Below are positions 1-15,774 of a DNA stretch of 41,534 nucleotides, piece after piece. The first letter of the stretch is position 1. Every line of letters starts with the position of its first letter. The notes below the pieces were generated by a model that saw only the letters and a program-made list of their open reading frames with translations, was not told where the DNA came from and searched no databases. The DNA is from a virus. A program made the position numbers and the translations under genes. The stretch covers positions 1 through 41,534 of IMG/VR virus record IMGVR_UViG_3300035212_000327; one strand, 5' to 3'.

Positions 1-1606
1 TTGTTTCTACATTTATACCAGCTGCGCCGTGAGTTTCTTCCGTATTCTCGTCAAATAGTCCAATTTGAATTTCGCGACCATCAACTTTGCCGATAGCTTT
101 ATTGACAAGGGTATACTCACCAACATTCTTCTGTAGCGTCTTGAATAGTTCTTTGTGTGGTTCTACGCACACAACATTACTAGGCTTTTTATGTTTGATG
201 CTCCAAGTAAATGGTCCAATAGAAGCACCAATGTCTAAGACAACATCGTTTTCCTTTACTGGAACAAACTTTTCATAAACATTCTGTTCGAAGATTTCAT
301 AAAATACCACACTTCTAAACCATGGGTTTTTATTGATTGCACCCCAATCCAATGCGTCACTACCATCACTACTGAACATATATTCTGTTGCATCTTTTGA
401 TGTTTCAGTAACGTCGAGCATCTTCTGTAGAATTTCTGGTGATATCAAATCTGGATGAACCCACCAATCTTCAAAGGTATTTACGCCATCTGGGGATAGA
501 TCGTTTGCTACCATAACATATCCCATAGACTTAAGATATTTGCGAGACTTATCTCTATATGATCTTGTGAAATCCGCATAGTAGTCATGCTCATACGTGA
601 TTACTGCAAACTTACACTTGTCGAATGGCATCTTTAACAGACACTTATAGGTATTTTCAGCAGGTTCGATATCCAACTGAAGATAGTCTACAGTATCACC
701 GTAGTTCTCTTCAATCAACTTTTCATAGTCTATCTTTAGAGCGTCTTGACACAGAATTTGAGTATCGCGTTCCTTCTTATATTCTTCGACACATTTTGGA
801 TCAAATTCAACAGAAATACCTTTCCAGTTGAATTCTTTCTCAAGCAGATATGTATTGTTACCCTTCTTAGGTCCTGCACCCCCGATCTCAAGGAATGTGC
901 CGTACTTCTTACCATTAAGCATTGCAAGTACAAACATGTCCTGATAAATTTGTGAGAAATTCTGTTTAAGTCTTTCTGCACCTGGGAACTTGTTTCTTAG
1001 CTTCGGGTACATAGACTTGTTATACATACGGTAGATGTATGATTCTGGATAGCAGCCTAGATGCTGAATATTGTACGTTACAGCATTACGATGATCATTG
1101 TCCAAATCATTCCAATAATTATCTACAAGATATTGCAGCAATTCGCGCGACTCTTTGCCTTTGCCTCTCCACCATGCAGCGACAGCTTTTTGAAAAATCA
1201 GTCCGTATCTGCCCGGATAATAGATATTCAAACGAGGGAATGTCTTGTTTTCAGAGTTGTTTAATCCAAGCTCTGCAAACATATACGATTCAAAGTACTG
1301 TCCTTCTTTTTCCAAATATCTAGACATGCTGAAATACGCTTCTGGGCGATCAGGCATTAGTGTAATAGCACCTTGAAACATGCTCTTGACACTATACTTT
1401 CTATTGTCTTGAAGATTAAAACAATTACCCATACGAATTAAACACTCGTATGCCATATTGTTATCAGAAGTGAGTTCGGAAGCTCTCAGAAAGAAAGACA
1501 GTGCGGAAGCAGTTTGTCCCATCGCTTCATACTGTACGCCCAACTTATAGTTCTTTGTTGGGTTATCTGAGTCCATAATGTACTCGTTAATCAAATTATC
1601 AATCAT
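1..1606 (-). CDS. TPR protein with two FkbM-like methyltransferase domains (3' end outside window)
   Basis: The reading frame is open from an ATG at 1606 to the window edge, giving about 535 codons; the C-terminus is missing. Residues about 20-125 look like tetratricopeptide repeats (for example a segment with ASALSFFLRASEL). A first class I SAM-dependent methyltransferase core starts near residue 237 (FLEIGGAGP, then SVEFDP and VDYLQLDIEP near 308). A second one starts near residue 452 (VVLDIGASIGPF, then VVCVEPHKELF). Both resemble the FkbM family, which O-methylates sugars or small glycans. The ATG overlaps the end of the upstream gene by eight bases (ATGATTGA), so translation is probably coupled. 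Known: FkbM methyltransferases are frequent in glycan gene clusters of bacteria and aquatic phages. Inferred: it modifies a glycan together with the next three genes. The exact substrate cannot be read from the sequence, and the first domain could be inactive. Confidence 0.8.
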   Translation of the reverse strand, partial: MIDNLINEYIMDSDNPTKNYKLGVQYEAMGQTASALSFFLRASELTSDNNMAYECLIRMGNCFNLQDNRKYSVKSMFQGAITLMPDRPEAYFSMSRYLEKEGQYFESYMFAELGLNNSENKTFPRLNIYYPGRYGLIFQKAVAAWWRGKGKESRELLQYLVDNYWNDLDNDHRNAVTYNIQHLGCYPESYIYRMYNKSMYPKLRNKFPGAERLKQNFSQIYQDMFVLAMLNGKKYGTFLEIGGAGPKKGNNTYLLEKEFNWKGISVEFDPKCVEEYKKERDTQILCQDALKIDYEKLIEENYGDTVDYLQLDIEPAENTYKCLLKMPFDKCKFAVITYEHDYYADFTRSYRDKSRKYLKSMGYVMVANDLSPDGVNTFEDWWVHPDLISPEILQKMLDVTETSKDATEYMFSSDGSDALDWGAINKNPWFRSVVFYEIFEQNVYEKFVPVKENDVVLDIGASIGPFTWSIKHKKPSNVVCVEPHKELFKTLQKNVGEYTLVNKAIGKVDGREIQIGLFDENTEETHGAAGINVET

Positions 1607-2573
1607 TCATAAAGTCCTTCACTGTCTGTTTGGAACACTTCAATATGTAAGAAGCATTATCTTGGAAACCGAATGTCATTAGAATTTCATCTTCATATTC
1701 TGCAAGACCGCAAGCAAACTCAATGTTTGCTCCCATAAAAGAGAATGCTTTTGACTTCGCGACTGGTTGATATTCTTTATTCCACTTAACCAATCTATGT
1801 GTATATATTGCATCTTTACGACCGGCTTCAGATTGAAACAGATCAACCTCATGTGTGAGGCTTAGATATCCGTCTTCAAATGGAATAATTTGTCCATTAC
1901 CTCGTAAATCTCTAGCAAAGTAAATATCTTTGCTTTGGAAAACTGTCTCACATGTTTTCTCTATAGGATCTACCTTAACGATATTAACAGGATTTGACCA
2001 TCTCCAAAAATGATACGGTTGATCGACTATGGGCATCCAGTTCTTTTCGCAATACGTATTGTCAATATCTGGTGCTGGTATACGCCATCTGGAAATTTCT
2101 TTAGCAGATGTTGGAGTAAACTCAATTTCAGAAAGTTCCATACGACCTTGACCATTAGTTGTCGTATCGCGCCTTACGCCGCATAGATATACTTTATCAT
2201 CCCACTTGATCACGCGACCATCTTCGAGTCCGACAAATTCCCAAATAGGTTTAACGTCGAGTAAAGAAGTGTCTACACGATTGCAATACTTTATCGTTAA
2301 GTCGGGATTTAACTCACCGAAATAGTTTGTGGTTGTAAGGGTAATATCATTTTCAGGATTGAAATAGACAAGAGGTCCATAAGGATGCTCATGGATGTTC
2401 TTTTCAGAATGGTATAGTGTGTATTGGCAGTGTCTAATGTTGAGATAGATTCGAGCACCATCAACCCAAATACTTGGATTGAATAGTGCAGTTCCGTTTG
2501 TGATTTTGGAATCGAGAATAAGAGGCTTAACAGTGCCGCCATTTTCAAGAACAAATTTTGCAAAGTGTGTCAT
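1599..2573 (-). CDS. GH43/GH130-like five-bladed beta-propeller protein
   Basis: This 324-aa protein has the landmarks of the five-bladed propeller glycosidase/phosphorylase superfamily. They are FNPSI near residue 31, GLEDGR at 115-120 (position of the EDPR-type signature), EKNWMP at 176-181, LRGNGQ near 223, and IEFACGL followed by FGFQDN near 284-306. EKNW plus a late IEF.(A/C)GL...G..D segment is characteristic of poorly studied relatives of GH130 found next to glycosyltransferases. No signal peptide is visible. A good Shine-Dalgarno (GAAGG) precedes the ATG. It overlaps the methyltransferase gene by eight bases and follows a 55-base gap. Seen: motifs and context. Inferred: it acts on, or binds, a glycan. 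Whether it is a hydrolase, a phosphorylase or a catalytically dead lectin cannot be decided, because the family's acid/base residues are not certain here. Confidence 0.65.
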   Translation of the reverse strand: MTHFAKFVLENGGTVKPLILDSKITNGTALFNPSIWVDGARIYLNIRHCQYTLYHSEKNIHEHPYGPLVYFNPENDITLTTTNYFGELNPDLTIKYCNRVDTSLLDVKPIWEFVGLEDGRVIKWDDKVYLCGVRRDTTTNGQGRMELSEIEFTPTSAKEISRWRIPAPDIDNTYCEKNWMPIVDQPYHFWRWSNPVNIVKVDPIEKTCETVFQSKDIYFARDLRGNGQIIPFEDGYLSLTHEVDLFQSEAGRKDAIYTHRLVKWNKEYQPVAKSKAFSFMGANIEFACGLAEYEDEILMTFGFQDNASYILKCSKQTVKDFMND

Positions 2574-2609
2574 AGTATACCTTCATTATAAAGAGTTCAG
2601 TAGTATATA

Positions 2610-2625
2610 TCTTCTCTCCAGAAGA
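2610..2625. other. Short perfect hairpin in the 55-base gap
   Basis: TCTTCT (2610-2615) and AGAAGA (2620-2625) form a six-base-pair stem with a four-base loop in the second-longest gap of the window (2574-2628). There is no run of T after it in either direction, so a classic terminator is unlikely. It could be a weak pause, a transcript-processing site or accidental. Confidence 0.3.
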
Positions 2626-2628
2626 GCT

Positions 2629-3075
2629 TTACACATATGGCGGCTTCGGATACTTGTCTTTCACTGCTTGGATCTTAGTCAAAATGTCTTGGTATTCAGC
2701 AGAATCTATGCCTTTTGATATGCCACCTAGCTGATCTCCCATAATAGGATATTCATTTCTACGAAGAGCATAGTAATCAGGATAATCTGGTTTTACTACC
2801 TCTTCTTTAGCAATGTCTACAACTGTTTCTTCCATTGTTATCCGATTTAACTCGATTCTTGTTTTAGGTTCCAATGCTGCCCACTGAGCTTCTTTATAGT
2901 CTATTTCATCATAAATTCTAGTTTCCATAGAAGCTAGTGAATCTGTAACGCTTACTCCTTGCGGAATATATACCATCCAGTCATAAGTATTTCCATTGTG
3001 AACGACCTCAAGATGAGCAATATCTCTTGTTTCTGGTGCTGGTGGTGTAAATATACCTTTTAATCCTATTGTCAT
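2629..3075 (-). CDS. Small tail-fibre-associated protein with C-terminal YP..PPY tail motif
   Basis: A 148-aa protein with a clear GGAG ribosome site a few bases before the ATG. The second half contains YALRRNEYPIMGDQLGGI and ends in a helix with IQAVKDKYPKP. The pattern R..EYP...DQL.......I...I..IK..YPKP is the short phage-tail segment widespread in fibre-associated proteins of contractile-tailed phages. The N-terminal half (residues 15-50) looks like a small beta domain (AHLEVVHNGNTYDWMVYIP). It sits nine bases downstream of the glycosyltransferase/methyltransferase gene. Its presence inside the glycan cassette suggests the cassette belongs to the tail module. Role inferred: a fibre-tip or fibre-assembly accessory; no enzyme motif seen. 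Confidence 0.6.
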   Translation of the reverse strand: MTIGLKGIFTPPAPETRDIAHLEVVHNGNTYDWMVYIPQGVSVTDSLASMETRIYDEIDYKEAQWAALEPKTRIELNRITMEETVVDIAKEEVVKPDYPDYYALRRNEYPIMGDQLGGISKGIDSAEYQDILTKIQAVKDKYPKPPYV

Positions 3076-3084
3076 ATTATCTCC

Positions 3085-4413
3085 TTAATCTTTCTGCCAA
3101 TACCACAAGTCTTGTTTCGCATTACTAATTTCTTTACCAATACTATTAGCAAACTCCCTAACGGCCTTATTCACGCCTTGAATCCTAGCAAAATCGTGAC
3201 CAATAATGAATCCGCCGTTTTTAATCTTAGGATAGTAGTTTTTACAATCTTTTAAGACCTGCTCATATGTATGTAGACCATCGATGAATACAAAATCTAA
3301 AGATTCGTCATCAAACATCTTCACAGCATCATCGGAATCTTCGTAGATGTGATTATATCTTTCCATATACGGATCAACTTTTCTCAACATCTCTGCTTTA
3401 TTGGCATCACCATCTGGCTGTGTATCATTCCAATCAATATAAACTGGATAAGAATCGACGCCGGACAATCTTAGTGATGGTAAAGTTTGTAATAAGTATT
3501 CCGTAGTGGTTCCTTCAGCAACGCCAACTTCTACACCAACAGGATTTTCAATTCCTTTTATAATTTCTGGAATATCTTCTCCTGGTAGCCAACGGGAAAC
3601 GCCTTCTGTTGGATTATTAATACCACCGGGTAATCTTGAAGTCCATCTAAAATCTATGAACATCTTATCTTCAATCGTTAGTGGAACAGTTGGCTTGATG
3701 TTTGTGAAATAATGGTTTAGATTGACAGAAGGATGTGCTGTATATTTGCCTGTTGCGATATCCATATGAAGACACTGAACGTCAGTATTCACAAGCACTT
3801 TAACGCCAGATTTGCGGCAACGATGTAAGAAAAAATTATCTTCACCTACAAATGGAATGTCTTCAATGCCGTTTGCGATACAACAGAAAGGCAAATCAGG
3901 ATCTTCATCCTTCATGCGACGAAGCGTTTCTACTGGAATTAACATACAATCCATACCAGTTTGCCATGCTTCAAATACCTGTCCTGGCGATACATCTGGA
4001 ACAATAATATGATTGTCTTTGCGAACGCTAATCATAGCATGAGCGCACTTAATGTAATACACACCAGCAGCGATATGACCAGGATTTGCTTCGCATGTTT
4101 TGAGAAGATTTTCAAACGCATTATACGGAACAACTGTATCGTCGCCAATAAAGAATAGATATTTTGCACCAGAATCTAATACAGAATCTATTAGATAGTT
4201 TCGGGCAACATCCACAAGCATTTTTTCACAGTCAACATATCCATGTGAATGCCCCATGATAGCCACATGACATAAACTATATCCGTTAAATGTTTGTGCT
4301 GGTGTTTCTTCTTTATTGCGTTTAGGTTGAGCAATAACTACGAACGGCTTAATACTTTGAGCTTCATTTTTAATATTGTGTAATGTTTGAATTATCTTAT
4401 CTCGATTGTACAT
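3085..4413 (-). CDS. Glycosyltransferase (GT-A type) fused to class I methyltransferase
   Basis: This 442-aa protein has two domains. Residues about 20-220 resemble a GT-A glycosyltransferase: YLFFIGDDTVVPYNAF has a DD metal/nucleotide-sugar motif at 91-92, and GEDNFFLHRCRKSGVKVLVN (190-209) followed by His216 matches the ED..F..R....G pattern of family 2-like enzymes. Residues about 290-430 are a SAM-dependent methyltransferase: VGVEVGVAEGTTTEYLL (292-308), an acidic residue at 320, and FVFIDGLHTYEQV (374-386), the IDG.H.Y signature of the Methyltransf_24 group. The ribosome site GGAG lies about seven bases before the ATG. This is the most promoter-proximal gene of the cassette, and a TATCTAAATAA stretch lies about 30 bases upstream. 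Inferred role: adds and methylates a sugar on a phage or host glycan; acceptor unknown. Confidence 0.75.
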   Translation of the reverse strand: MYNRDKIIQTLHNIKNEAQSIKPFVVIAQPKRNKEETPAQTFNGYSLCHVAIMGHSHGYVDCEKMLVDVARNYLIDSVLDSGAKYLFFIGDDTVVPYNAFENLLKTCEANPGHIAAGVYYIKCAHAMISVRKDNHIIVPDVSPGQVFEAWQTGMDCMLIPVETLRRMKDEDPDLPFCCIANGIEDIPFVGEDNFFLHRCRKSGVKVLVNTDVQCLHMDIATGKYTAHPSVNLNHYFTNIKPTVPLTIEDKMFIDFRWTSRLPGGINNPTEGVSRWLPGEDIPEIIKGIENPVGVEVGVAEGTTTEYLLQTLPSLRLSGVDSYPVYIDWNDTQPDGDANKAEMLRKVDPYMERYNHIYEDSDDAVKMFDDESLDFVFIDGLHTYEQVLKDCKNYYPKIKNGGFIIGHDFARIQGVNKAVREFANSIGKEISNAKQDLWYWQKD

Positions 4414-4435
4414 AATGACTCCATAATGAATATTA

Positions 4436-5575
4436 TCAATACTTATTTAGATACGGGTGTAGACATATTGCTCTAGGAAATGTAACGCCAGAGTTATTTC
4501 GTATTACTTGACCTACCGCGGCGCCAAAATAAGGCACAAAATAAATATCACCATTAGGTGCTAGAATACCACCGGCAGAAGCAAATGAAGAAGTATAAGC
4601 AAGACTATATGTTGATACAACACCAGCGGCAGATATTTTTTGACCGACAGTTCGCTGATAAGGAATAAAATGTATATCTCCATTAGGTGCTAGAACACCG
4701 CCACTAGTTAAACCAGAAGCAGTATAAACAAGACTGTAAGTTGATACAGTTCCATTAATATCTATCTTTTGCCCTACGCTAGATTGATCAGGAATAAAAT
4801 GTATATCTCCATTAGGTGATAAAACGCCACCAAAATAAGCGGCCGGGCTTGTATGAGCAAGACTATATGTTGATACAACACCAGCGGCAGATATTTTTTG
4901 CCCTCTATTAGCACTATAAGGAACAAAATGTATATCGCCATTAGGTGCTAGAACACCTCCCCAATAAGCAGTTGTAGTAGTATATGATAAAGTATATGTT
5001 GATACAACACCAGAAGGAGATATCTTTTGTCCTCTATTAGCATTATATGGTATAAAATGTATATCGCCATTAGGTGCTAGAACACCGCCATTATAAGCAC
5101 CACCTGAATTGGTATATGTTAAAGTATATGTTGATACTACACCAGAAGGAGATATCTTTTGTCCTCTATTAGCTTGAGCAGGAACAAAATGTATATCACC
5201 ATTTGGTGCTAAGACACCACCAATATAAGCAGAGGATGCTGTATAGGGCAAAGTATATGTTGATACTACACCAGCGGCAGATATTTTTTGCCCTCTATTA
5301 GCACTATTAGGAACAAAATGTATATCACCATTTGGTGCTAATACACCACCAAAATAAGCGGCGATAGATGTTGTATAAGCTAAACTATATGTTGTTACGA
5401 TATCATTAGTAAACAATCTACCACCAGCAACACCCTCATCTAGAATCTTCTTGAATCCATTCCATCCAACAAGATCGCTACCAATGCTGCTGTTATTACC
5501 AGAAGGCAAAGTTCCTTGAAGTTCATTTCTAACTTCTTCTACAAAACTAGGTGAGGATTTACGAATATTTGCCAT
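4436..5575 (-). CDS. Seven-repeat beta-propeller-like adhesin, paralogue 1
   Basis: 379 aa. After an N-terminal segment of about 60 residues (NNSSIGSDLVGWNGFKKIL) come seven copies of a unit of about 42 residues. Its core reads GGVLAPNGDIHFVP, then RGQKIS, then GVVSTYSL.YT. Seven copies of a four-strand-sized unit strongly suggest a seven-bladed beta-propeller. The protein ends in a short conserved tail, CLHPYLNKY. It is the last of three tandem paralogues and starts two bases after the previous stop. The repeat GGVLAPNG.I also occurs in unrelated bacterial and eukaryotic propeller proteins. Inferred role: a receptor- or glycan-binding head at a fibre tip. No catalytic residues recognised. 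An alternative is a closed ring used as a structural spacer. Confidence 0.75.
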   Translation of the reverse strand: MANIRKSSPSFVEEVRNELQGTLPSGNNSSIGSDLVGWNGFKKILDEGVAGGRLFTNDIVTTYSLAYTTSIAAYFGGVLAPNGDIHFVPNSANRGQKISAAGVVSTYTLPYTASSAYIGGVLAPNGDIHFVPAQANRGQKISPSGVVSTYTLTYTNSGGAYNGGVLAPNGDIHFIPYNANRGQKISPSGVVSTYTLSYTTTTAYWGGVLAPNGDIHFVPYSANRGQKISAAGVVSTYSLAHTSPAAYFGGVLSPNGDIHFIPDQSSVGQKIDINGTVSTYSLVYTASGLTSGGVLAPNGDIHFIPYQRTVGQKISAAGVVSTYSLAYTSSFASAGGILAPNGDIYFVPYFGAAVGQVIRNNSGVTFPRAICLHPYLNKY

Positions 5576-5577
5576 TT

Positions 5578-6705
5578 TTAAAACTTATTAAACCAGGGAG
5601 ACATACATATGCCTTGACTGAAAGGTGATGTCATTGTTGATATCTCTTGCCCTACAGCGGCACTATAAGGAACAAAATATATGCTGCCATCAGGTGCTAG
5701 AACACCGCCATTATAAGCACTGGTAGTGGTATAAATTAAACTATATGTTGATACAGTACCATTAGCGGATATCTTTTGCCCTCTATTAGCAGTATCAGGC
5801 ACAAAATGTATATCACCGTTAGGTAATAGAACACCACCAGAATAAGCCGCTGAGGCTGTATAAACTAAACTATAAGTGGACACAGTGCCATTAATATCTA
5901 TTTTTTGTCCTCTATTAGCATTATAAGGAATAAAATGTATATCGCCATTAGGCGCTAGAACACCTCCGCCATAAGCAAAAGAAACAGTATAAACTAAATC
6001 ATATGTTGATACTACACCAGCGGCAGATATTTTTTGCCCTCTAATAGCTTGAGCCGGAATAAAATGTATATCTCCATTAGGTGCTAGAACACCTCCAACA
6101 TAAGCAAAAGAAGCAGTATAAACAAGACTGTAAGTTGATACAGTTCCATCAGGCGCTATCTTTTGTCCTACTCTAGCACTGTAAGGAATAAAATGTATGT
6201 CTCCATTAGGTGCTAGAACACCACCTAAATAAGCATTAGTGGTAGTATAAACAAGACTATAGGTTGATACAACACCCGAAGAAGATACTTCTTGTCCTCT
6301 ATTAGCACTATTAGGAACAAAATGTATATCACCATTTGGTGCTAATACACCACCAAAATAAGCATTAGTGGTAGTATAAACAAGACTGTAAGTTGATACA
6401 GTTCCATCAGGCGCTATCTTTTGTCCTCTATTAGCTTGAGCAGGAACAAAATGTATATCACCATTTGGTGCTAAGACACCACCAGCATAAGCTAATCCAG
6501 TAGTATAAATGAGACTGTATGTGGATACTATATCTGTACTATAAAGCTTGCCCTTAGCAACGCTTTTGTATAACAAGTTTTGAAAATCTTTCCAAGCAAC
6601 AAGGTCTGTTCCAACACTGCTATTATTGGCTGTCGGAAGAGTTCCCCAACCAAGTTCTTTTGTATCTGCTACCCATCGAGGAGCTATGTTGAATGTTGCT
6701 GTCAT
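5578..6705 (-). CDS. Seven-repeat beta-propeller-like adhesin, paralogue 2
   Basis: 375 aa, closest to paralogue 1. It has the same N-terminal region (NNSSVGTDLVAWKDFQNLL) and seven GGVLAPNGDIHFVP units. The last unit diverges (GGVLAPDGSIYFVP), and the conserved tail is CMSPWFNKF. Its first two blades are the same two blades as in paralogue 1 but in swapped order, with perfect DNA identity over 68-70 bases, a sign of blade exchange by recombination. No good Shine-Dalgarno precedes the ATG at 6705, which lies one base after the upstream stop, so reinitiation or coupling is likely. Function inferred as for its neighbour: a surface-binding propeller on a tail fibre. Fold call from repeat number only. 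Confidence 0.75.
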   Translation of the reverse strand: MTATFNIAPRWVADTKELGWGTLPTANNSSVGTDLVAWKDFQNLLYKSVAKGKLYSTDIVSTYSLIYTTGLAYAGGVLAPNGDIHFVPAQANRGQKIAPDGTVSTYSLVYTTTNAYFGGVLAPNGDIHFVPNSANRGQEVSSSGVVSTYSLVYTTTNAYLGGVLAPNGDIHFIPYSARVGQKIAPDGTVSTYSLVYTASFAYVGGVLAPNGDIHFIPAQAIRGQKISAAGVVSTYDLVYTVSFAYGGGVLAPNGDIHFIPYNANRGQKIDINGTVSTYSLVYTASAAYSGGVLLPNGDIHFVPDTANRGQKISANGTVSTYSLIYTTTSAYNGGVLAPDGSIYFVPYSAAVGQEISTMTSPFSQGICMSPWFNKF

Positions 6706-6706
6706 A

Positions 6707-7846
6707 CTAATGTTTATTTAGATATGGTGAAGCACAAGTACCAAAATCTAATGGTCGTGCTGAGTTTGTGTAAAGTATTCTACCCTCATAACTCGTTATA
6801 GCAGGAAGCATAACGATTGTACCATCAGGTCTTAAAATACCGCCATAGTAAGATGCTATAAAGTCATTTGTAAATGTTGATACTACATTAGTTGCTGAGA
6901 TTTTCATACATTGTCCAAATCCTGCATAAGGTATAAAGTATATATCGCCTGTCGGCGCCAACACACCACCAGAAAACTTGTTGCCTCCTGTCATAAGAAT
7001 ACTATAAGTAGAAACGGTTCCATTTGTTGAAATTTTTTGTCCTACAGTAGAAACGAAAGGTACCATATGAATTTCACCAGTAGAAGAAAGCACGCCTCCA
7101 AAAAATCCATCTTCTACTGTGTATGCTAAAGAATATGTACTAACAACACCACTAGCAGATACTTTCTGACCTACACTGGCAAGTCCGCGCGGCATAAAGT
7201 GAATATCTCCATTAGGTGCTAGAACACCACCACTATAAGCATCTTCTACTGTGTATACCAATGCATATGTTGATACTACACCAGCAGGAGAAATCTTTTG
7301 TCCAACAGCAGCATAATTTGGAACAAAATGTATATCACCGTTGGGTGCCACAACACCGCCAGCATATGCGCCGTTGATATTTGTATGTACCAATGCATAT
7401 GTTGATACTACACCAGAAGCGGAAACTTTTTGACCAACAACAGCATAATTTGGAACAAAATGAATATCGCCATTAGGTGCTAGAACGCCTCCAACATAAG
7501 CTCCACTACCATTTGTATATGCCAGAGAGTATGTGCTGACAACACCAGAAGCGGAAACTTTTTGGCCTCTGTTTGCAGCAGAAGGAACAAAATGAATATC
7601 TCCATTTGGTGCTAGAACACCTCCATTATAACCAATTACTGATGTGTATACTAAAGAAAATGTTGTTGCGATCTCATTAGTAAAAGTTCTACCTGCTTTG
7701 ATGCTTCTGTTTAGATTAGTTGAAAATCCTATCCAATCATCTGTTGCTGTATTAGCATCACCGCTTGGAATAACACCGTGAGCAGTTTCATAAAAATCTA
7801 TTCTATTGTTACTACCGATAAAGTGAGTATTTGCTGATGCAGACAT
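6707..7846 (-). CDS. Seven-repeat beta-propeller-like adhesin, paralogue 3 (most divergent)
   Basis: 379 aa with seven repeats, the most diverged of the three. Blades 1-4 keep APNGDIHF; blades 5-7 drift (GGVLSSTGEIHMVP, GGVLAPTGDIYFIP, GGILRPDGTIVMLP). The start (residues 1-60) differs from the other two up to SIKAGRTFTNEIATTFSL, which aligns with their GGRLFTNDIVTTYSL. The C-terminal tail CASPYLNKH preserves the C..P(Y/W)(L/F)NK pattern of the family. An AGGAT ribosome site overlaps the stop region of the upstream 113-aa gene (TAGGATAAAATG). As the first of three paralogues in transcription order, it may be the oldest copy. Role inferred: fibre-tip ligand-binding propeller. Confidence 0.75.
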   Translation of the reverse strand: MSASANTHFIGSNNRIDFYETAHGVIPSGDANTATDDWIGFSTNLNRSIKAGRTFTNEIATTFSLVYTSVIGYNGGVLAPNGDIHFVPSAANRGQKVSASGVVSTYSLAYTNGSGAYVGGVLAPNGDIHFVPNYAVVGQKVSASGVVSTYALVHTNINGAYAGGVVAPNGDIHFVPNYAAVGQKISPAGVVSTYALVYTVEDAYSGGVLAPNGDIHFMPRGLASVGQKVSASGVVSTYSLAYTVEDGFFGGVLSSTGEIHMVPFVSTVGQKISTNGTVSTYSILMTGGNKFSGGVLAPTGDIYFIPYAGFGQCMKISATNVVSTFTNDFIASYYGGILRPDGTIVMLPAITSYEGRILYTNSARPLDFGTCASPYLNKH

Positions 7847-7847
7847 T

Positions 7848-8189
7848 TTATCCTAACACAATAACGGTATACTGATTAGTTGTAGGCGCCGTATTAAATT
7901 CCAAAACAATGTGATTTAGCGAAGTGTACTTTAGATCGGGGTATACGTAGTATCCTGTTGAATTTTCTCTCACTGCAGGAATAACATAAGTTTTAGCAAG
8001 ATTGTGTGCAACATTGAATGTGGTTGCTGATCCATTGCCTACGTTGCTCGAAAATACGGAAGCGCCACCACCTCCAGCTCCGGCAGGAACAACTTGCCAT
8101 GCGCCCACAGATGTTGAATAACTCCATGTTAATGCGCCGCTTGTGAACGTTTGACCGTTTGTTGGACTACCTGGAAAATTTATTGCCAT
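7848..8189 (-). CDS. Short fibre adaptor-like protein
   Basis: 113 aa. The start, INFPGSPTNGQTFTSGALTW followed by a conserved W, is the small adaptor module seen at the front of many phage fibre proteins (PG.PT.GQTF......W......W). The middle is a short glycine linker (GAGGGGAS). The C-terminal half (SATTFNVAHNLAKTYVIPAV onward, to residue 113) resembles small beta-sandwich tips of marine fibre proteins. A GATAAATA box lies about 22 bases upstream of the ATG, so this gene probably opens a late transcript that includes the propeller genes. Role inferred: minor fibre or fibre connector. No enzyme motif. Confidence 0.55.
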   Translation of the reverse strand: MAINFPGSPTNGQTFTSGALTWSYSTSVGAWQVVPAGAGGGGASVFSSNVGNGSATTFNVAHNLAKTYVIPAVRENSTGYYVYPDLKYTSLNHIVLEFNTAPTTNQYTVIVLG

Positions 8190-8211
8190 TTTTTATTCTC
8201 TTTGTTCTTTC

Positions 8212-8219
8212 TATTTATC
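8212..8219 (-). promoter_or_regulatory. Late-promoter-like box GATAAATA
   Basis: On the minus strand the gap between the polyglycine gene and the 113-aa gene holds GATAAATA, 22 bases before the ATG at 8189. It matches the NATAAATA form of late promoters reported for T4-like marine phages. It would drive the 113-aa gene and the three propeller genes. Confidence 0.5.
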
Positions 8220-8222
8220 ATG

Positions 8223-9731
8223 TTAGTTAAACATGAAAAGCATACCAAATGTAGAAGATGATCCTCCGGCTACTATATATTCGATAAACGCACCGCCTGG
8301 CGCACCTGCGGCACCAGTACCGTTTGTAGTTGAAACTCTTGCGCCTCCAGATCCACCGCCACCAAAGGCAAGACCTGCTGTTCCTGCTGTTGTTGCGCCA
8401 CCTGCGCCGCCATTACCACCATGAGAACTTCCGCCTGTTCCGGCTGTTGTTCCTGAAGCATTGCCGCCATTATTATCAATGCCTGCTCCACCACCTCCAG
8501 CACCACTGGCACCACTTGCGCCTGTACCTCCTGTACCACCAGATCGAGCAACATCGCCTCCTGAACCTGTACCTCCTGTACCGCCCGCACCGTTATTTGG
8601 ATTACCGCCTACGCCGCCTGTTGCTGTTAGTAATAGAGTGCCGCCACTAGTTGATAATGTTGTACTTGCACCTGTACCACCTACAGTAGTTCCTGTAGTG
8701 CCTGCGCCGCCATCACCAATAACAAGTAAATATTGTGTTCCTGCAGTTGTGGCAATTGTTTCTCTAGCATATCCACCACCGCCACCGCCACCGCCAGCGT
8801 TAGCACTTAAACTTGTCCCTGCACCACCACCACCGCCACCCCACAAATGAACGATCATGGATGTTATGCCGACCGGAGAAGAAGGTACAGTTATAGTTTG
8901 TGAAACAGCAGTTGAATATACAACAGTATGCCAGTAGTTTGTGGTATTTGATGAGTTATAAGTTATTGCTACACCGCCAGGGCCGCCAGCAATACCGCTA
9001 CCTGAGCTATCATCGTCTCTAGCACCACCACCACCACCGAAAGCACCGCCCGATGTTTGTGTGCCTGTATTACCTGAAGAACCGCCTGTGCCGTGAGCAT
9101 TTAATGCGCCACCAGTACCGCTTGATCCTTCGCCAGAAAGACCTACGCCACCGCCGCTTCGGCCCTGGCCAGAGTTAGTAGCACCACCGCCGCCGCCTCC
9201 GCCACCAGATCCGTTTGATCCAGCACCAGTACCACCGCCAGCACCACCATTTCCTGTATAACCACCAGCACCGCCACCACCACCGCCAGCATTATTATCA
9301 GTCGCACCACCACCAGCACCACCTGAACCGCCGCTTGTTCTATTTGTTCCTGTTGAAGCGCCGCCGCCAGCACTTGCTGTTGAGCGATTTTGACCGCCAG
9401 AACCACCAGCACCTGACAGTAGTGCTGTACCTGCTAATGAAATACTACTTCCGCCACCGGCACCACCATTACCACCAGATGAACCAGCAGTACCAGCCGC
9501 ACCGGCAACGACAGTTAGAATGCTTCGTGCTGTTGCTGAAGTTAAAGAACCGTTAGCTAAACCTCCACCGCCGCCGCCTCCGTTGCCTTGGTTTCGATCA
9601 CCTTCAGAACCAGCACCGCCGCCACCGCCACCTACAACGACACCGAGGACGCTCGTAGCATCTGGAGGCACGACATATTTTACTGTCAGTGTTCCAGAAG
9701 CACCGCTAAGAATGTCTGTTTTAGTTACCAT
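8223..9731 (-). CDS. Polyglycine-rich adhesin, two tandem modules
   Basis: 502 aa, dominated by glycine, with many runs of four to six Gly separated by Ala, Ser, Thr or Asn. It is built as two similar modules. Each begins with a short beta region (TLTVKYVVPPDATSVLGVVV near residue 15; TITVPSSPVGITSMIVHLWG near 270), continues into a glycine-rich block, and ends in a segment like GGPGGVAITY or GAPGGAFIEY. Known: glycine-rich motifs in T4-like adhesins (the gp38 type) fold as polyglycine-II lattices with host-binding loops between them. Inferred: a similar lattice here, with the variable loops as binding sites. It lies 12 bases after the long collagen-like fibre gene, with AAGG before the ATG. 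It is not a homologue of gp38 by any residue pattern I can name. Confidence 0.65.
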   Translation of the reverse strand: MVTKTDILSGASGTLTVKYVVPPDATSVLGVVVGGGGGGAGSEGDRNQGNGGGGGGGLANGSLTSATARSILTVVAGAAGTAGSSGGNGGAGGGSSISLAGTALLSGAGGSGGQNRSTASAGGGASTGTNRTSGGSGGAGGGATDNNAGGGGGGAGGYTGNGGAGGGTGAGSNGSGGGGGGGGATNSGQGRSGGGVGLSGEGSSGTGGALNAHGTGGSSGNTGTQTSGGAFGGGGGARDDDSSGSGIAGGPGGVAITYNSSNTTNYWHTVVYSTAVSQTITVPSSPVGITSMIVHLWGGGGGGAGTSLSANAGGGGGGGGYARETIATTAGTQYLLVIGDGGAGTTGTTVGGTGASTTLSTSGGTLLLTATGGVGGNPNNGAGGTGGTGSGGDVARSGGTGGTGASGASGAGGGGAGIDNNGGNASGTTAGTGGSSHGGNGGAGGATTAGTAGLAFGGGGSGGARVSTTNGTGAAGAPGGAFIEYIVAGGSSSTFGMLFMFN

Positions 9732-9743
9732 TACAATAAGCCC

Positions 9744-12700
9744 TTAAGCTGAACCAACACAACGCCATTTTGATGATACTGAATTCCATACGAATCCAAC
9801 GTCAAGTCTATTTGTAGAAACTGTTGTGGTTGGCAATGCTATTGTTGATGCTTCAAATGATGCACCCCAAGTAATAGAGCGTGCGGCTGTGCCAACAATA
9901 TATATCCACAATTTTTGACCATTTGTAGGAGTTCCTGACATCGTAAAACCTGTAATATTTACAGTAAGTGCTGTGATACCATATACATCAACGTTATCTG
10001 TATTAATACTTGGTGTTGCGCTTGATGCTGTAGTTGATACTCTTGGTGTAATCCTAGTACCTGTAACAGTGCCGCCGGTAATAGACACTGAGTCTGATGC
10101 TTGTGTTGCTATTGTTCCAAGACCAAGAGATGTTCTAGATTGAGATGGAGTTTCAAGCGTCCAGCTTGATCCATTACCCACAATAAAGTTATCCGCAGTT
10201 GGAGAAAGTGCCGCTATTTGATCAAGATTTGTGTCCCACGCTTGAACCACTGAACCGATCTGAGCACTATCTACAACTTTGTACCAGTTCATCGCAGTTG
10301 AATCGATTGTGTTTAATGGTGTAAAAGTTGTGGTCCATAATGTTCCCGCGTTTGTTGAGCCCTGATCAATATTTACAGTTGCTCCAGCAATTTCATCGGC
10401 CGTATCTGCGTCTAATGAACGAGTCCAGGTGCCAGAAGCAACTAGATAAATGCCATTTTGAGATGCTGTTCCTTGATTCTTTACAAGAACACGATCCCCA
10501 ACTACTACCGCAATGCCATCAATTGTTTGTGTGCCTGAGCGTGTGATGCTTCCTGTTGTTGCTACTTTAACAGATTTTTTAGTCCAAGCACCGGGAAGAC
10601 TTTCAAGTGTCAGTGTTTGGAATGTTGGAGCAGATCCAGCATTTGATAATAGTGCTTGCCCTGTTGTTCCAGCAGTAGTAAAAGCATAAGCACTACCTGT
10701 GCCATAAGCAACAGCGCCTGCCGTAGGTGTTGCTGATCCATTTGTACCGCCACTAGCAATCGCAAGAGTGCCTGCAAGAGTAACAGCACCTGATGTGGCC
10801 GATGCTGGAGTAAATCCAGTTGTACCAGCAGAGAATGTAGTTACGCCACCACCTGCGCCGGAAGTTCCCTGAGATCCAGTTGTTCCTTGACTGCCGGACC
10901 CCGTTGTACCCTGCGTACCTGTAGCACCTTGAGTAGCGGTATATTGATTTGCTTCAACCCACTGCGAAGTGTCTCCATCATTATAATAGATGTACATCTT
11001 AGCTGTTGTTGAATTCCACCATAAACTATTTGCTGTTGGTGATGATGGTGCCACATCTGAAACGGCTGCTTTAGCTTCGGTGCTTATAAGTCCTTGAATA
11101 CCCTGAGAACCTAAAATACCTTGAGCACCAGTGGCACCTTGTGTAGCAGTACCTACAGTACCTTGAGCACCAGTGGCACCTTGTGTGGCAGTACCTACAG
11201 TACCTTGAGCACCTGTAGTTCCTTGAGTAGCAGTTCCAGTCGTACCTTGAGCACCTGTAGTTCCTTGAGTAGCAGTTCCAGTCGTACCTTGAGCACCTGT
11301 AGTTCCTTGAGTAGCAGTGCCGGTAGCACCTTGTGTGGCAGTGCCGGTAGCACCTTGTGTGGCAGTTCCTGTGGTGCCCTGAGCACCTGTTGTACCCTGA
11401 GTAGCAGTGCCAGTTGTGCCCTGAGCACCTGTTGTACCCTGAGTAGCAGTGCCAGTTGTGCCTTGTGTACCTACAGTACCTTGAGTGCCGACCGTACCTT
11501 GTGTACCTGTTGTGCCTTGTGTGCCGTTAGCGCCTTGAGGACCTTGTCTACCTTGAGCTCCTTGAGCGCCTAATACACCTTGGGCACCTAATATACCTTG
11601 AGCACCTGTAGTTCCTTGAGCACCTGTGGCACCTTGAGTAGCAGTACCTACAGTTCCTTGGGCGCCCGTTGCACCTTGTGTAGCAGTACCTGTGGTACCT
11701 TGAGTACCTGTTGTACCCTGAGTAGCAGTTCCTGTAGTACCTTGAGTACCAAGAATACCCTGAGTGCCAGTTGTACCTTGTGTACCTGTAGTACCTTGAG
11801 TGCCAGTCGTACCTTGTGTACCGTTAGCACCTTGAGGACCTTGTCTACCTTGAACTCCTTGGGAGCCTAATACACCTTGAGCGCCTAATACACCTTGAGC
11901 ACCAGTTGCACCCTGAGTCGCTGTTCCTGTAGTGCCTTGAGCGCCCAATACGCCTTGTGTACCTTGAGTTCCTGTACCACCTTGAACACCTTGTGATCCA
12001 GTTATACCTTGAGTACCAGTTGTGCCTTGAGCACCTGTTGTGCCTTGAGCGCCTGTTGTGCCTTGTGTACCTGTTGTTCCCTGAGTACCTGTTGTTCCCT
12101 GAGTACCTGTAGTTCCTTGAGATCCAGTAATTCCTTGCGTGCCGTTAGTACCTTGAGCACCAGTTGTGCCCTGAGTACCGACGGTGCCTTGCGATCCAAT
12201 TGTTCCTTGAGTACCGTTAGTACCTTGTGTACCAGTGTCGCCCTTATCACCTGTTCTTGCAAACGTGATAACAATATCTTCACTTGCATTGAATGATGTG
12301 ACACCAGAAAGATATGTGCAGTTTACGGTATAGTAGCCAGTAGAGTTGCTTACGCTTGTAATTGTGAAGATTGCAAATCTATTTGCATTGGTCTTATTCA
12401 TAATACTGAAGTGACCCTTCAGCGTACTTGTACTAGTACCAATACCATTTAGAAATGTTGTGAGATCAACAGAAGAATCATTCAGAACATCAATGTACAT
12501 TGCAGTGGCAGAAGAAAGCGTTGCGTTATTAAATCTTAATTTGCCTGTTCCTGGGTCAGCTGCCGTTGTAACAGTATCGAATGTGAAGTCAAATGATGCG
12601 CCACCAAAATTACCTTGTGTACCCTGCGTACCGGTTGTGCCTTGAGTCGCTGTACCTGTAATACCTTGTGTGCCTAAATTTCCTTGTGCACCTAGAACAC

Positions 12701-13658
12701 CCTGTGTACCTAGTGTACCCTGAGAACCGGTCGTACCTTGTGTGCCTGTAGTACCTTGAGTGCCTGTAGTACCTTGAGTACCATTCGTGCCTTGTGTACC
12801 TGTTGTGCCTTGTCTACCTTGGGCACCTTGCGCGCCTGTAGTTCCTTGTGATCCAGTCGTGCCTTGAGAACCTAAAGTTCCTTGAACACCCTGAGTACCC
12901 TGAGAACCCAATACACCTTGCGTACCTTGGGTACCAGTTGTTCCCTGTGCGCCTGTCGTTCCTTGTGATCCGACAGTACCTTGTGTACCTGTTGTTCCTT
13001 GTGATCCAGTCGTGCCTTGAGAACCTGTTGTGCCTTGTGATCCAGTCGTGCCTTGAGAACCTAAAGTTCCTTGAACACCCTGAGTACCCTGAGAACCTAA
13101 TACACCTTGCGTACCTTGGGTACCAGTTGTTCCCTGTATGCCAGTAGTGCCTTGAGAACCTAAAGTTCCTTGTGTTCCATTAGTACCTTGTGTTCCAGTT
13201 GTTCCTTGAGAACCCAATACACCTTGCGTACCTTGGGTACCAGTTGTGCCTTGAGTGCCAGTAGCACCTTGAATGTTTGTCGGACTGCCGTTAATAAAGA
13301 ACGAACTGGCATTCACACTACCAGCCACATCAACTTTGTAGTTGGCATTCGCTCTACCGATACCGACATTTCCGCCAAATGGAGCAAGTGTTATCAATCC
13401 ATTAGCATTTACTTCAACAGACGGAATACCTGAAACGTCATTGACTGAAAAGATTGTATTTGTCAGATCATTTGTAATAGAGAATAACTGTCCAGCAGAA
13501 CCTTCAAATGAAAGTGTTCCGCTTTGAGTTGTGTAAACTCTTACGTTGATATCTGTGTTTGAAGTTGCATCACCACCAGAGAAGCGGATGGAAGGCACAT
13601 TGGCTGCATCCGTGTCTCTGTTTGGAGTGATTACTATGTTTTTGTATGTATTGGCCAT
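9744..13658 (-). CDS. Long collagen-like tail fibre with interrupted triplets
   Basis: 1304 aa. Residues 1-125 form an N-terminal beta domain (KNIVITPNRDTDAANVPSIR... NVGIGRANANYKVDVAG). Residues about 131-348 are Gly-X-Y repeats rich in GTQ, GTT and GSQ. Residues 349-471 are a globular insert also present in the 1030-aa fibre (GKLRFNNATLSSATAMYIDV). Residues 472-853 are a second collagenous rod entered through TGDKGDTG and broken about 13 times by GTATQ. The C-terminal region holds PSSPTANSLWWNSTTAKMYI, then a module with DGIAVVVGDRVLVKNQGTAS and ASQNGIYLVASGTWTRS known from phage fibres, and a beta tip. Proline is nearly absent from the rods. Predicted to be a trimeric fibre on the virion. 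The ATG at 13658 has no strong ribosome site and lies eight bases after the upstream stop. Confidence 0.8.
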   Translation of the reverse strand: MANTYKNIVITPNRDTDAANVPSIRFSGGDATSNTDINVRVYTTQSGTLSFEGSAGQLFSITNDLTNTIFSVNDVSGIPSVEVNANGLITLAPFGGNVGIGRANANYKVDVAGSVNASSFFINGSPTNIQGATGTQGTTGTQGTQGVLGSQGTTGTQGTNGTQGTLGSQGTTGIQGTTGTQGTQGVLGSQGTQGVQGTLGSQGTTGSQGTTGSQGTTGSQGTTGTQGTVGSQGTTGAQGTTGTQGTQGVLGSQGTQGVQGTLGSQGTTGSQGTTGAQGAQGRQGTTGTQGTNGTQGTTGTQGTTGTQGTTGSQGTLGTQGVLGAQGNLGTQGITGTATQGTTGTQGTQGNFGGASFDFTFDTVTTAADPGTGKLRFNNATLSSATAMYIDVLNDSSVDLTTFLNGIGTSTSTLKGHFSIMNKTNANRFAIFTITSVSNSTGYYTVNCTYLSGVTSFNASEDIVITFARTGDKGDTGTQGTNGTQGTIGSQGTVGTQGTTGAQGTNGTQGITGSQGTTGTQGTTGTQGTTGTQGTTGAQGTTGAQGTTGTQGITGSQGVQGGTGTQGTQGVLGAQGTTGTATQGATGAQGVLGAQGVLGSQGVQGRQGPQGANGTQGTTGTQGTTGTQGTTGTQGILGTQGTTGTATQGTTGTQGTTGTATQGATGAQGTVGTATQGATGAQGTTGAQGILGAQGVLGAQGAQGRQGPQGANGTQGTTGTQGTVGTQGTVGTQGTTGTATQGTTGAQGTTGTATQGTTGAQGTTGTATQGATGTATQGATGTATQGTTGAQGTTGTATQGTTGAQGTTGTATQGTTGAQGTVGTATQGATGAQGTVGTATQGATGAQGILGSQGIQGLISTEAKAAVSDVAPSSPTANSLWWNSTTAKMYIYYNDGDTSQWVEANQYTATQGATGTQGTTGSGSQGTTGSQGTSGAGGGVTTFSAGTTGFTPASATSGAVTLAGTLAIASGGTNGSATPTAGAVAYGTGSAYAFTTAGTTGQALLSNAGSAPTFQTLTLESLPGAWTKKSVKVATTGSITRSGTQTIDGIAVVVGDRVLVKNQGTASQNGIYLVASGTWTRSLDADTADEIAGATVNIDQGSTNAGTLWTTTFTPLNTIDSTAMNWYKVVDSAQIGSVVQAWDTNLDQIAALSPTADNFIVGNGSSWTLETPSQSRTSLGLGTIATQASDSVSITGGTVTGTRITPRVSTTASSATPSINTDNVDVYGITALTVNITGFTMSGTPTNGQKLWIYIVGTAARSITWGASFEASTIALPTTTVSTNRLDVGFVWNSVSSKWRCVGSA
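12844..13137. repeat. Direct repeat of about 105 bp in the long collagen-like gene
   Basis: 12844-12948 and 13033-13137 are the same with one visible mismatch; the period is 189 bases, or 63 residues (21 Gly-X-Y triplets). A third, partial copy begins near 13209. Exact repeats of this length favour slippage and recombination that change rod length without losing the frame. Confidence 0.8.
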
Positions 13659-13666
13659 GTTACTAT

Positions 13667-14812
13667 TTAGATTCCAAATCTACCGCGAAGAGCGTTAAAG
13701 TTTTGTTGGATTTCTGCTGCTGTTAGAGCGCGACTGTATGCTTGTACGTTAGAACTATGCCCTTTCCAAGTTTGTCCGCCTCCTCTATTAAACCAAGTAG
13801 CAGTTGCCGCTGGAGTTGTATACGCAGTTCCTGTTCCGACCAAATTTCCATTTACATAATAAGAAGCCGCTGAAGATCCTGAAGGTTTGGATAATGCTAC
13901 ATGAACCCACTGATTTCTATAGACTGTTGGTGTTGTATAATTACCACCAGTATCGAACTCAATCTGACCAGAAGTATTCCACCATATCATAGGTGTTGTT
14001 GATGCGCTATCAACAAAATTTCTATAAGTTGCTGTTGATTCTGTAGAGTATAACCATCCCATGTAGGTTACGGCTTGACCAGCCGTTGTGGCAAATGAAG
14101 AACTAATATAATCATCAACACCATCAAAAGTAAATGTATTATTAGAATAATAAGTTAAATTATTTATAGTTATTGTAGTATTTTTGCTCAAATCTAGTAA
14201 TGCTTGTGCAGAACTTCTTGATGTGCTTGTAAATGTTGTGCAAAAAGCACCTTGCTCTACTTGAACATCTTTTATCCAAACAAAATCTGTGCCTGAATTG
14301 AAAGTCGTACCATCTGATAATGGTCGAGTGCCAAGATATCCTACTTGTGATGTTGTAGGATTAGCATAACCTGTGCTATATATGAAACCTTCTACTTTAT
14401 TACTGATGATCTCTAAGCCATCTTCATATCCAATAGATGTTGATGTGTATGTACCACCATTAGTCATGTTAGGATCATTAACATAATAAAGGCTTCCAAA
14501 AGTAAGAAACTTATTTCTTACGTTTGTTTTCATTAAACATTGTGCGCTATAAGCAACTCCACCTGTAAAAGTTGCACCTGATATGTACATTGAAAATGGA
14601 TATGTTCCCGCATTCCAAGTTCCTGATATGCTATATTTTTTCCACCCATTTTCTAAACCGACATATGTCAAGGTTATAGTCTGCATTCCACCTAAACCTT
14701 GATCAGAATTTATATTTGTTGTTGGTGCGCCTTTCCATGACTTAGAGTTGCCTATATCAAAACTAAAAACTAAACTATCATTCAAAATTTTTGGACCAGC
14801 GTAAACACTCAT
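13667..14812 (-). CDS. LamG/concanavalin-A-like lectin-fold fibre protein 1
   Basis: 381 aa. The start, GPKILNDSLVFSFDIGNSKS, and the later FTFDGVDDYISS, WVHVALSKP, SYYVNGNLVGTG and YSRALTAAEIQQNFNALRGR together are the classic LamG-like jellyroll layout (laminin G/ConA-like). Here the domain is split by an inserted region of about 150 residues between the first strand and FDGVDDY; this insert includes ENGWKKYSISGTWNAGTYPF, similar to a carbohydrate-binding module. The start codon overlaps the previous stop as ATGA. The ribosome site GGAAGG is encoded inside the conserved C-terminal codons of the preceding LamG gene. Role inferred: binds a host polysaccharide from the end of a fibre. No hydrolase catalytic motif seen. 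Confidence 0.72.
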   Translation of the reverse strand: MSVYAGPKILNDSLVFSFDIGNSKSWKGAPTTNINSDQGLGGMQTITLTYVGLENGWKKYSISGTWNAGTYPFSMYISGATFTGGVAYSAQCLMKTNVRNKFLTFGSLYYVNDPNMTNGGTYTSTSIGYEDGLEIISNKVEGFIYSTGYANPTTSQVGYLGTRPLSDGTTFNSGTDFVWIKDVQVEQGAFCTTFTSTSRSSAQALLDLSKNTTITINNLTYYSNNTFTFDGVDDYISSSFATTAGQAVTYMGWLYSTESTATYRNFVDSASTTPMIWWNTSGQIEFDTGGNYTTPTVYRNQWVHVALSKPSGSSAASYYVNGNLVGTGTAYTTPAATATWFNRGGGQTWKGHSSNVQAYSRALTAAEIQQNFNALRGRFGI

Positions 14813-15516
14813 AGTCCGTACCTTCCACGAAGAGCGTTGAAGTTTTGTTGGATTTCTGTTGCTGACAAAACGCGACTGTAGTATGTAAAATATGAGATGT
14901 TACTTATCATCCTGTTTGTTGTGCCGCCTTGGTACCTACTTCCAATAACACTATCGCTTACTACTGTATTGATAAACGTTGTTCCAAGAGATGCGTCTGT
15001 TAGCGTCCAAATGTGTTGTCCGTTATTGTATACTTTAAATGTACTTGAAGGCCAGTCCAATGTCATCGTTACATTGTGCCATTTATTAAGAACAACTATA
15101 CCTGTTGGTCCTAAATATGCTTCAATTTGTGCTGATGTTGTGGAATAAAGATTGCCTCTTAGAAACGTTCTGTATTGACCGTTATCATCAAAACCAAGAT
15201 AGTGTCTTGCATTTTCTCTAGAAAAGATGCAATCTACTCCAGAAGCGTTGAATGATGTTGGATAGAACCAGCAAGAGTATGAGAATGTGATGAGAGTTAG
15301 ATCAGTCTTGTTTTGCAGATCAACATAATCATCCGTGCCATCAAGTGTAAGATAACTGTTACTGTAAGAAACACCATTCACAAGTGTTCCGTTATTACCT
15401 CTACCACTCAAATCAGTCCAAGTTGTTCCACTACCAGAATATGATTTTGGATTACCAGCATCTAAACATAGCACCAATCCGTCAGTAACAATCTTTGGTG
15501 AATGACTTAATCCCAC
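14809..15516 (-). CDS. LamG/concanavalin-A-like lectin-fold fibre protein 2 (compact)
   Basis: 235 aa, the minimal version of the family. It has VTDGLVLCLDAGNPKSYSGS, TWTDLSGRGNNGTLVNGV, LTLDGTDDYVDL, a long central beta region, FKVYNNGQHIW and YYSRVLSATEIQQNFNALRG. This is a single LamG_3-type domain with no extra insert. The start is GTG at 15516; the upstream sequence AGAGGAAATGTAA gives a good ribosome site and no ATG lies nearby, so GTG is accepted. It follows the 85-aa gene without a gap and overlaps the next LamG gene by four bases. Inferred: a glycan-binding fibre head. Its similarity to the genes on both sides points to local duplication. Confidence 0.75.
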   Translation of the reverse strand: MGLSHSPKIVTDGLVLCLDAGNPKSYSGSGTTWTDLSGRGNNGTLVNGVSYSNSYLTLDGTDDYVDLQNKTDLTLITFSYSCWFYPTSFNASGVDCIFSRENARHYLGFDDNGQYRTFLRGNLYSTTSAQIEAYLGPTGIVVLNKWHNVTMTLDWPSSTFKVYNNGQHIWTLTDASLGTTFINTVVSDSVIGSRYQGGTTNRMISNISYFTYYSRVLSATEIQQNFNALRGRYGL

Positions 15517-15774
15517 TTACATTTCCTCTGACATTGGTATTGTCCATGCTTCTGTGTTCATCTCAGCAAGGATTTCACTGTGAGTCAAATACTCACCTTT
15601 GGTTGTTAGAGATTCAACACATGGTGGCACATTACCATCCCACTTGACGAATGTTAGTGTTCCATCTACTGACCGACGAACAGTATCAGCACTTGTTTCT
15701 AGTACCTGTGAGAAGTCTATGCTATCAAGTTCCGATACATTGAAGATTACATATTGTCTGGTTTCAAATTCCAT
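15517..15774 (-). CDS. Small conserved phage protein of unknown function between lectin-fold genes
   Basis: 85 aa. It contains YVIFNVSELDSIDFSQVLET, then SADTVRRSVDGTLTFVKWDG, and ends in HSEILAEMNTEAWT. I recognise this as a small conserved protein type of aquatic T4-like phages, generally placed beside fibre genes, with no assigned role. No membrane segment or catalytic motif is visible. Its start overlaps the end of the third LamG gene by 11 bases. The ribosome site AAGGAG falls in the Thr-Arg-Ser codons of that neighbour, which differ from the other LamG genes at exactly this point. A chaperone or fibre-assembly role is possible because of its size and position, but this is a guess. Confidence 0.6.
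   Translation of the reverse strand: MEFETRQYVIFNVSELDSIDFSQVLETSADTVRRSVDGTLTFVKWDGNVPPCVESLTTKGEYLTHSEILAEMNTEAWTIPMSEEM

Follow-up and report, generated by a model that had tools for sequence, protein, structure and literature searches.

In Podospora anserina, the WD40 blades of the hnwd gene family (het-d, het-e, and het-r) evolve in concert, both inside a gene and from one paralogue to another, the variable residues are located on one binding surface, and the seven clustered changes found over 88 bp in the r4 mutant were explained as a conversion from another repeat (PMC1805685, PMC2873952, PMC12222747). The hnwd genes encode fungal intracellular immune receptors in which the WD40 blades are associated with NACHT and HET domains; their repeat number is highly variable, and positive selection is established. 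In phages, a propeller domain was described in Gp45, a receptor-binding protein located at the baseplate of the S. aureus phage phi11; according to its published account, this protein has five blades and is a single homotrimeric gene product, and its abstract mentions no blade exchange (PMC4901313). Phage receptor-binding proteins targeted by diversity-generating retroelements (DGRs) combine a constant scaffold with hypervariable exposed residues, and a seven-bladed propeller fold is found in virginiamycin B lyase (Vgb; PF24684; PDB 2qc5 and 2z2n). As for gene conversion in phage propellers, no report was found in the literature searched, most subscription papers being outside its coverage.

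The window analyzed here, a stretch of 41,534 bases from a virus record, corresponds to the tail region of a T4-superfamily phage. Its minus strand carries baseplate-wedge and tail-fibre genes, and the best cultured matches of its gp6-like protein (32–39% identity) belong to Pelagibacter, Methylophilales, Synechococcus, and Sinorhizobium phages. The tail-fibre genes are followed downstream by three propeller genes, arranged in tandem on the minus strand in the transcription order C (6707–7846), B (5578–6705), and A (4436–5575). In the product of each ORF, an N-terminal region (about 55 aa) precedes seven repeats, each 42–44 aa long, and a C-terminal tail, which ends in PYLNKY in A, SPWFNKF in B, and SPYLNKH in C. 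Gene B has orthologues in relatives, and gene C, whose blades are more divergent, is 56% identical to it. Another run of related virion genes was observed in the window: the genes at 13667–14812, 14809–15516, and 15764–16918 all match PHROG 24074 and 8510, reaching the C-terminal end of 8510, and thus have a common C-terminal part.

The products of A and B scored 78.2 and 69.2 bits, respectively, against PF24684 (Vgb_lyase), above the Pfam gathering cut-off of 50, and that of C scored 33.1 bits, under this cut-off. Vgb_lyase was the only Pfam family over cut-off in A and B, and none was over cut-off in C. The AlphaFold2 (AF2) model of A is a seven-bladed propeller with a mean pLDDT of 83 (mostly 86–96 in the blades), in which the N-terminal strand 59–64 is predicted, from strand order, to close the ring by completing the last blade with a fourth strand. 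Foldseek matched this model to 2qc5 with a TM score of 0.88, normalised by 2qc5, and an E value of 6e-22. The phage proteins thus have the fold of Vgb lyase, but they are only 17–20% identical to it, and they differ from it by their near-identical repeats, their own N-terminal region and C-terminal tail, and their tail-gene context. Homology with the hnwd genes was considered and rejected, as the phage genes, three in tandem with Vgb-type blades, gave no NACHT, HET, or WD40 match over the Pfam cut-off.

No DNA match to the locus was found in cultured phages, and no relative was found in bacteria and archaea, searched with one genome per species. At the protein level, the only relatives among cultured phages are two Cylindrospermopsis phages (37%); in one of them, Cylindrospermopsis virus MH636380 (L183), the propeller is included in a much longer protein (AXK90424.1), of which the matched region is 37% identical. 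The N-terminal region of the propeller genes had no clear match among the other window proteins. Taken together, the site after the tail-fibre genes, the fold, the pattern of variation described below, and the precedent of the phi11 receptor-binding protein suggest that the three propellers are probably host-binding proteins of the phage tail; we infer their virion location and their binding to a receptor from the same elements.

The earlier note on this DNA had drawn attention to two identities between A and B, found in swapped order, and had interpreted them as recombination or gene conversion between blades, by which the phage may exchange whole blades. Both identities are exact and in frame: a 68-bp tract of A blade 1 (A1, 5292–5359) recurs in B blade 2 (B2, 6296–6363), and a 70-bp tract of A blade 2 (A2, 5153–5222) recurs in B blade 1 (B1, 6415–6484), all on the minus strand. 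However, a blade measures 129 bp, and the two matches extend over its first half only, from strand A through strand B and the BC loop into strand C. They belong to a network of exact tracts, which also connect, for example, B1 and B3 (55 bp; 6373–6427 and, in B3, 6115–6169 on the minus strand), A4 and A6 (45 bp), A1 and B4 (43 bp), and A5 and B3 (41 bp). B1 is thus a mosaic, its left half being identical to A2 and its right half common to B3, and the nearest neighbour of the right half of A2 is A3. The left and right halves of a blade pointed to one and the same nearest neighbour for just 2 of the 18 window blades, and for 80 of 845 blades overall, which indicates that exchange often involves less than one blade. 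The whole blade was therefore not retained as the unit of exchange in the window; nearly whole-blade tracts (110–123 bp) were found in some relatives.

In a silent-site run-length test within the window, the pairwise p-values were 0.009 for A2/B1 and 0.09 for A1/B2, and the global p-values were 0.16 and 0.80, i.e., not significant. Runs of 68 and 70 bp thus fall within the codon background shared over all pairs, and the apparent swap is a weak argument by itself. In contrast, a codon-block PHI test on the window blades detected recombination with the minimum possible p-value (0.002).

Comparison of the locus with a sister phage, L008, gave direct evidence of recombination, revealing allele replacements in gene A that were templated by other blades. 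L008 is 98.97% identical to the window over 11,487 bp (positions 1–11487), with no difference at all at positions 1–3500 and 8501–10000. Gene A contains 21 differences, which are mostly clustered, 15 of them being located in two tracts. Six lie at 5174–5213, in the 70-bp tract of A2, where the window allele is that of B1 (70 bp) and the L008 allele is that of B2 (65 bp). Nine lie within 14 bp (5007–5020, minus strand) in the CD turn of A blade 3 (A3), where the window allele matches A2 (35 bp) and the L008 allele matches A5 (32 bp). Four more differences were found in A blade 6 (4586–4621, minus strand), where a 20-bp portion of the L008 allele is also found in B blade 4. At the A2 and A3 tracts, both alleles copy other blades of the same genome, a pattern characteristic of non-allelic gene conversion, and such conversion has occurred recently in this lineage. 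These two tracts closely resemble the conversion tract of the Podospora r4 mutant.

Since A2 of L008 resembles B2, the A1/B2 and A2/B1 identities arose from separate copying events, and the swapped order does not reflect one reciprocal exchange. In the next relatives, L005 and L007, gene A is too divergent to polarise the A2 and A3 tracts. Donors were named by best match, and a co-infecting phage could have supplied the same tract.

Other clusters of differences between the window and L008 were observed around the propeller genes. The gene at 3085–4413, in which a glycosyltransferase-like N-terminal part is joined to a Methyltransf_24 domain, contains 24 differences in 181 bp (3685–3865) within an otherwise near-identical region, and this segment looks like an imported patch. 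In the tail-fibre gene at 9744–13658, 52 differences were found in 175 bp (11310–11484), after which the close alignment stops, marking a recombination boundary. Small clusters are also present in gene C, within its N-terminal region (7745–7751), and in a glycine-rich gene (8295–8373).

The analysis was extended to 77 distinct contigs obtained from three IMG/VR scans, 50 of which hold exactly three propeller genes. The triad is conserved, and its genes, unlike those of the hnwd family, are mostly single seven-bladed rings: exactly seven blades were counted by motif in 113 of 150 genes, and many of the deviants are explained by motifs that were missed or counted in excess. In L158, L066, and L078, longer or fused propeller genes were observed, the number of motif hits reaching about 20 in L158.

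Blades were compared in the 50 genomes (845 blades), using between-genome controls matched for GC3, not for phylogeny. At 80–90% amino acid identity, silent-codon identity was 0.633 within a gene, 0.555 between genes of one genome, and 0.465 between GC3-matched genomes, and exact runs of at least 40 bp were found in 9.1%, 2.3%, and 0.0% of the comparisons, respectively. The longest run, 123 bp, is shared by distant blades (blades 2 and 6 of gene 3 in L013). The PHI test, which is independent of the GC3-matched controls, was significant in 33 genomes when the sites of a codon were treated as independent and, with codon-block permutation, in 21 of 50 genomes (p < 0.05; Fisher combined p-value of 9e-22). 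In eight close pairs, the allele of a difference cluster, taken with its 6-bp flanks, recurred elsewhere in the three genes of its own genome in 18 of 186 cases, against 0.42 expected from other genomes. The recombination between blades of paralogous propellers advanced in the earlier note is thus backed both by L008 and by the PHI test, and it is apparently frequent.

The blades and the N-termini of these genes have different histories. The nearest neighbour of the N-terminus was in another genome for 135 of 139 genes, at the same gene rank for 122 of them, whereas that of a blade was in its own genome in 274 of 766 cases (36%, against 2.2% by chance, a 16-fold excess). As in the hnwd family, blades therefore group by genome and N-termini by orthologue. 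Where the N-termini of orthologues reached 92% identity or more, the silent identity of the N-termini was about 0.85, and that of most blade arrays was 0.39–0.56, the level of unrelated genomes being 0.46. In these orthologues, blades at the same position (0.731) were barely closer than blades at other positions (0.689), and the memory of blade position has thus been lost. In collinear pairs, non-blade segments were 86–97% identical and all three arrays 67–75% identical, with identity recovering between the arrays. The N- and C-termini appear to be near-fixed and to lie outside the turnover of the blades.

An alternative explanation is that allelic recombination between co-infecting relatives, as in the mosaicism of tail genes, is the main source of diversity and that the within-genome matches are secondary. 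Orthologous blade arrays at background identity are compatible with such imports, other genes of the tail region also carry imported patches between the window and L008 (e.g., 3685–3865 and 11310–11484), and for 64% of the blades the nearest neighbour is in another genome. This last result implies that intragenomic copying is not the sole source of variation. However, only 66 of these 492 neighbours share both gene rank and blade number with the blade that they match, so that even imports are largely non-allelic. The excess of own-genome neighbours and the two tracts at which the window and L008 alleles are both exact copies of same-genome blades also argue against allelic import as the main source, and we consider it unlikely. 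DNA of co-infecting relatives is more likely a second source, given the proportion of blades that are closest elsewhere but rarely to the same gene and position.

Alternatively, short-read assemblers may have collapsed or patched near-identical blades. Exact repeats of 40–120 bp common to blades are a known hazard in this respect, the window allele comes from one assembly only, and the Podospora genes required long reads (PMC12222747). Against such an artefact, L004 and L008 were assembled from different metagenomes and show 2 differences over about 12 kb, a patch whose unique flanks are kept on both sides requires two chimeric joins, and the signals recur across many independent assemblies. 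An artefact of this kind is thus very improbable.

We give even less credit to a recent gene duplication maintained by strong protein and codon constraint without recombination, although the scaffold is strongly conserved and the silent-run test was not globally significant in the window. The triad is older than the divergence of these phages, since N-termini group by gene rank, and the codon-block PHI test, which controls for codon constraint, was significant; in addition, the replacements between the window and L008 are clustered and templated, and blade silent sites are at background where N-terminal silent sites are about 85% identical.

Hypervariable phage tail proteins are classic targets of diversity-generating retroelements and inversion systems. 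The published account of tentaclins agrees with such targeting (PMC10743442), but a dedicated mutator of either type has next to no likelihood here, as no RVT_1 reverse transcriptase was found in 35 records (fragments, several of which reach 160–238 kb) and no serine resolvase or invertase (PF00239) in 22 records, and as exchange occurs in direct orientation among many blades. The allele changes also extend beyond adenines (e.g., GCTCAA/AATAGT), all four bases being involved in the differences between the window and L008. On the basis of these alleles and of the records searched, the locus was rejected both as a DGR target and as a shufflon or serine-invertase system. It resembles the former by its constant scaffold and hypervariable residues and differs from it in that the variation is templated by other blades; the proposal that diversification proceeds without reverse transcriptase agrees with the records searched.

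We then examined where variation falls within a blade, the limits of the strands being taken from the AF2 model. The most variable columns are 15, 16, 18, and 19, which cover the BC loop and the residue that opens strand C, and 38, 39, 40, and 43, which cover the DA loop and the beginning of the following strand A. Columns 25 and 26, in the CD turn, showed intermediate variability, and the strands are near-fixed. Variation is thus centred on loops. In propellers, the BC and DA loops are on the same face, and the variable residues would therefore be located mainly in the loops of one face, which makes it plausible that the variation gives new binding surfaces. Within genomes, pN/pS was 0.8–1.2 at the variable columns and mostly 0.01–0.4 in the scaffold; since pS is saturated (0.6), these values do not establish positive selection (pN/pS > 1), which was shown in the hnwd family, and only suggest diversifying selection at the variable columns. 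In their mode of diversification, the phage propellers most likely work like the HNWD receptors of Podospora, to which they are not homologous in domain make-up.

These results support a model in which the blade arrays of the probable receptor-binding propellers very probably diversify by homologous recombination among non-corresponding blades. Short tracts (about 30–125 bp, often half a blade) would be copied from one blade to a blade at another position, either within a gene or in a sister gene. The conserved stretches encoding the strands would provide homology between any two blades, and the variable loops would be the cargo; strand exchange or annealing during replication or repair would copy the tract and thereby relocate one or two loops. 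DNA of related co-infecting phages would probably join the same pool of donors. As the ring must close, selection for ring closure would hold the number of blades at seven. A RecA-family gene, as T4 UvsX, was found in 9 of 11 large relatives, so that a recombination machinery is at hand, and the phage may itself perform the copying in the infected cell through recombination of the RecA/UvsX type. The benefit would be in host range. More tentatively, and with somewhat less than even confidence, the triad may be a dedicated diversity-generating arrangement, in which 21 blades serve as a mutual donor bank, the strands are kept as homology arms, and phage recombination deals new combinations of loops on a host-binding ring; such an arrangement would be free of retroelements and present in many aquatic T4-type phages.

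Point mutation, swaps of whole tail-fibre genes, and retroelements are the usual accounts of how phages track their hosts. In about 50 related phages, three tandem propeller genes have kept near-constant ends while their blade arrays were largely turned over, and templated sub-blade exchange was caught between two near-identical phages. Blade exchange between propellers thus looks like a way for a surface that probably binds the host to vary independently of the mutation systems usual in phages, and its predictions can be tested on phage populations by long-read sequencing. The parallel with a fungal self-recognition system suggests that repeat propellers may be a recurrent substrate for rapid diversification.
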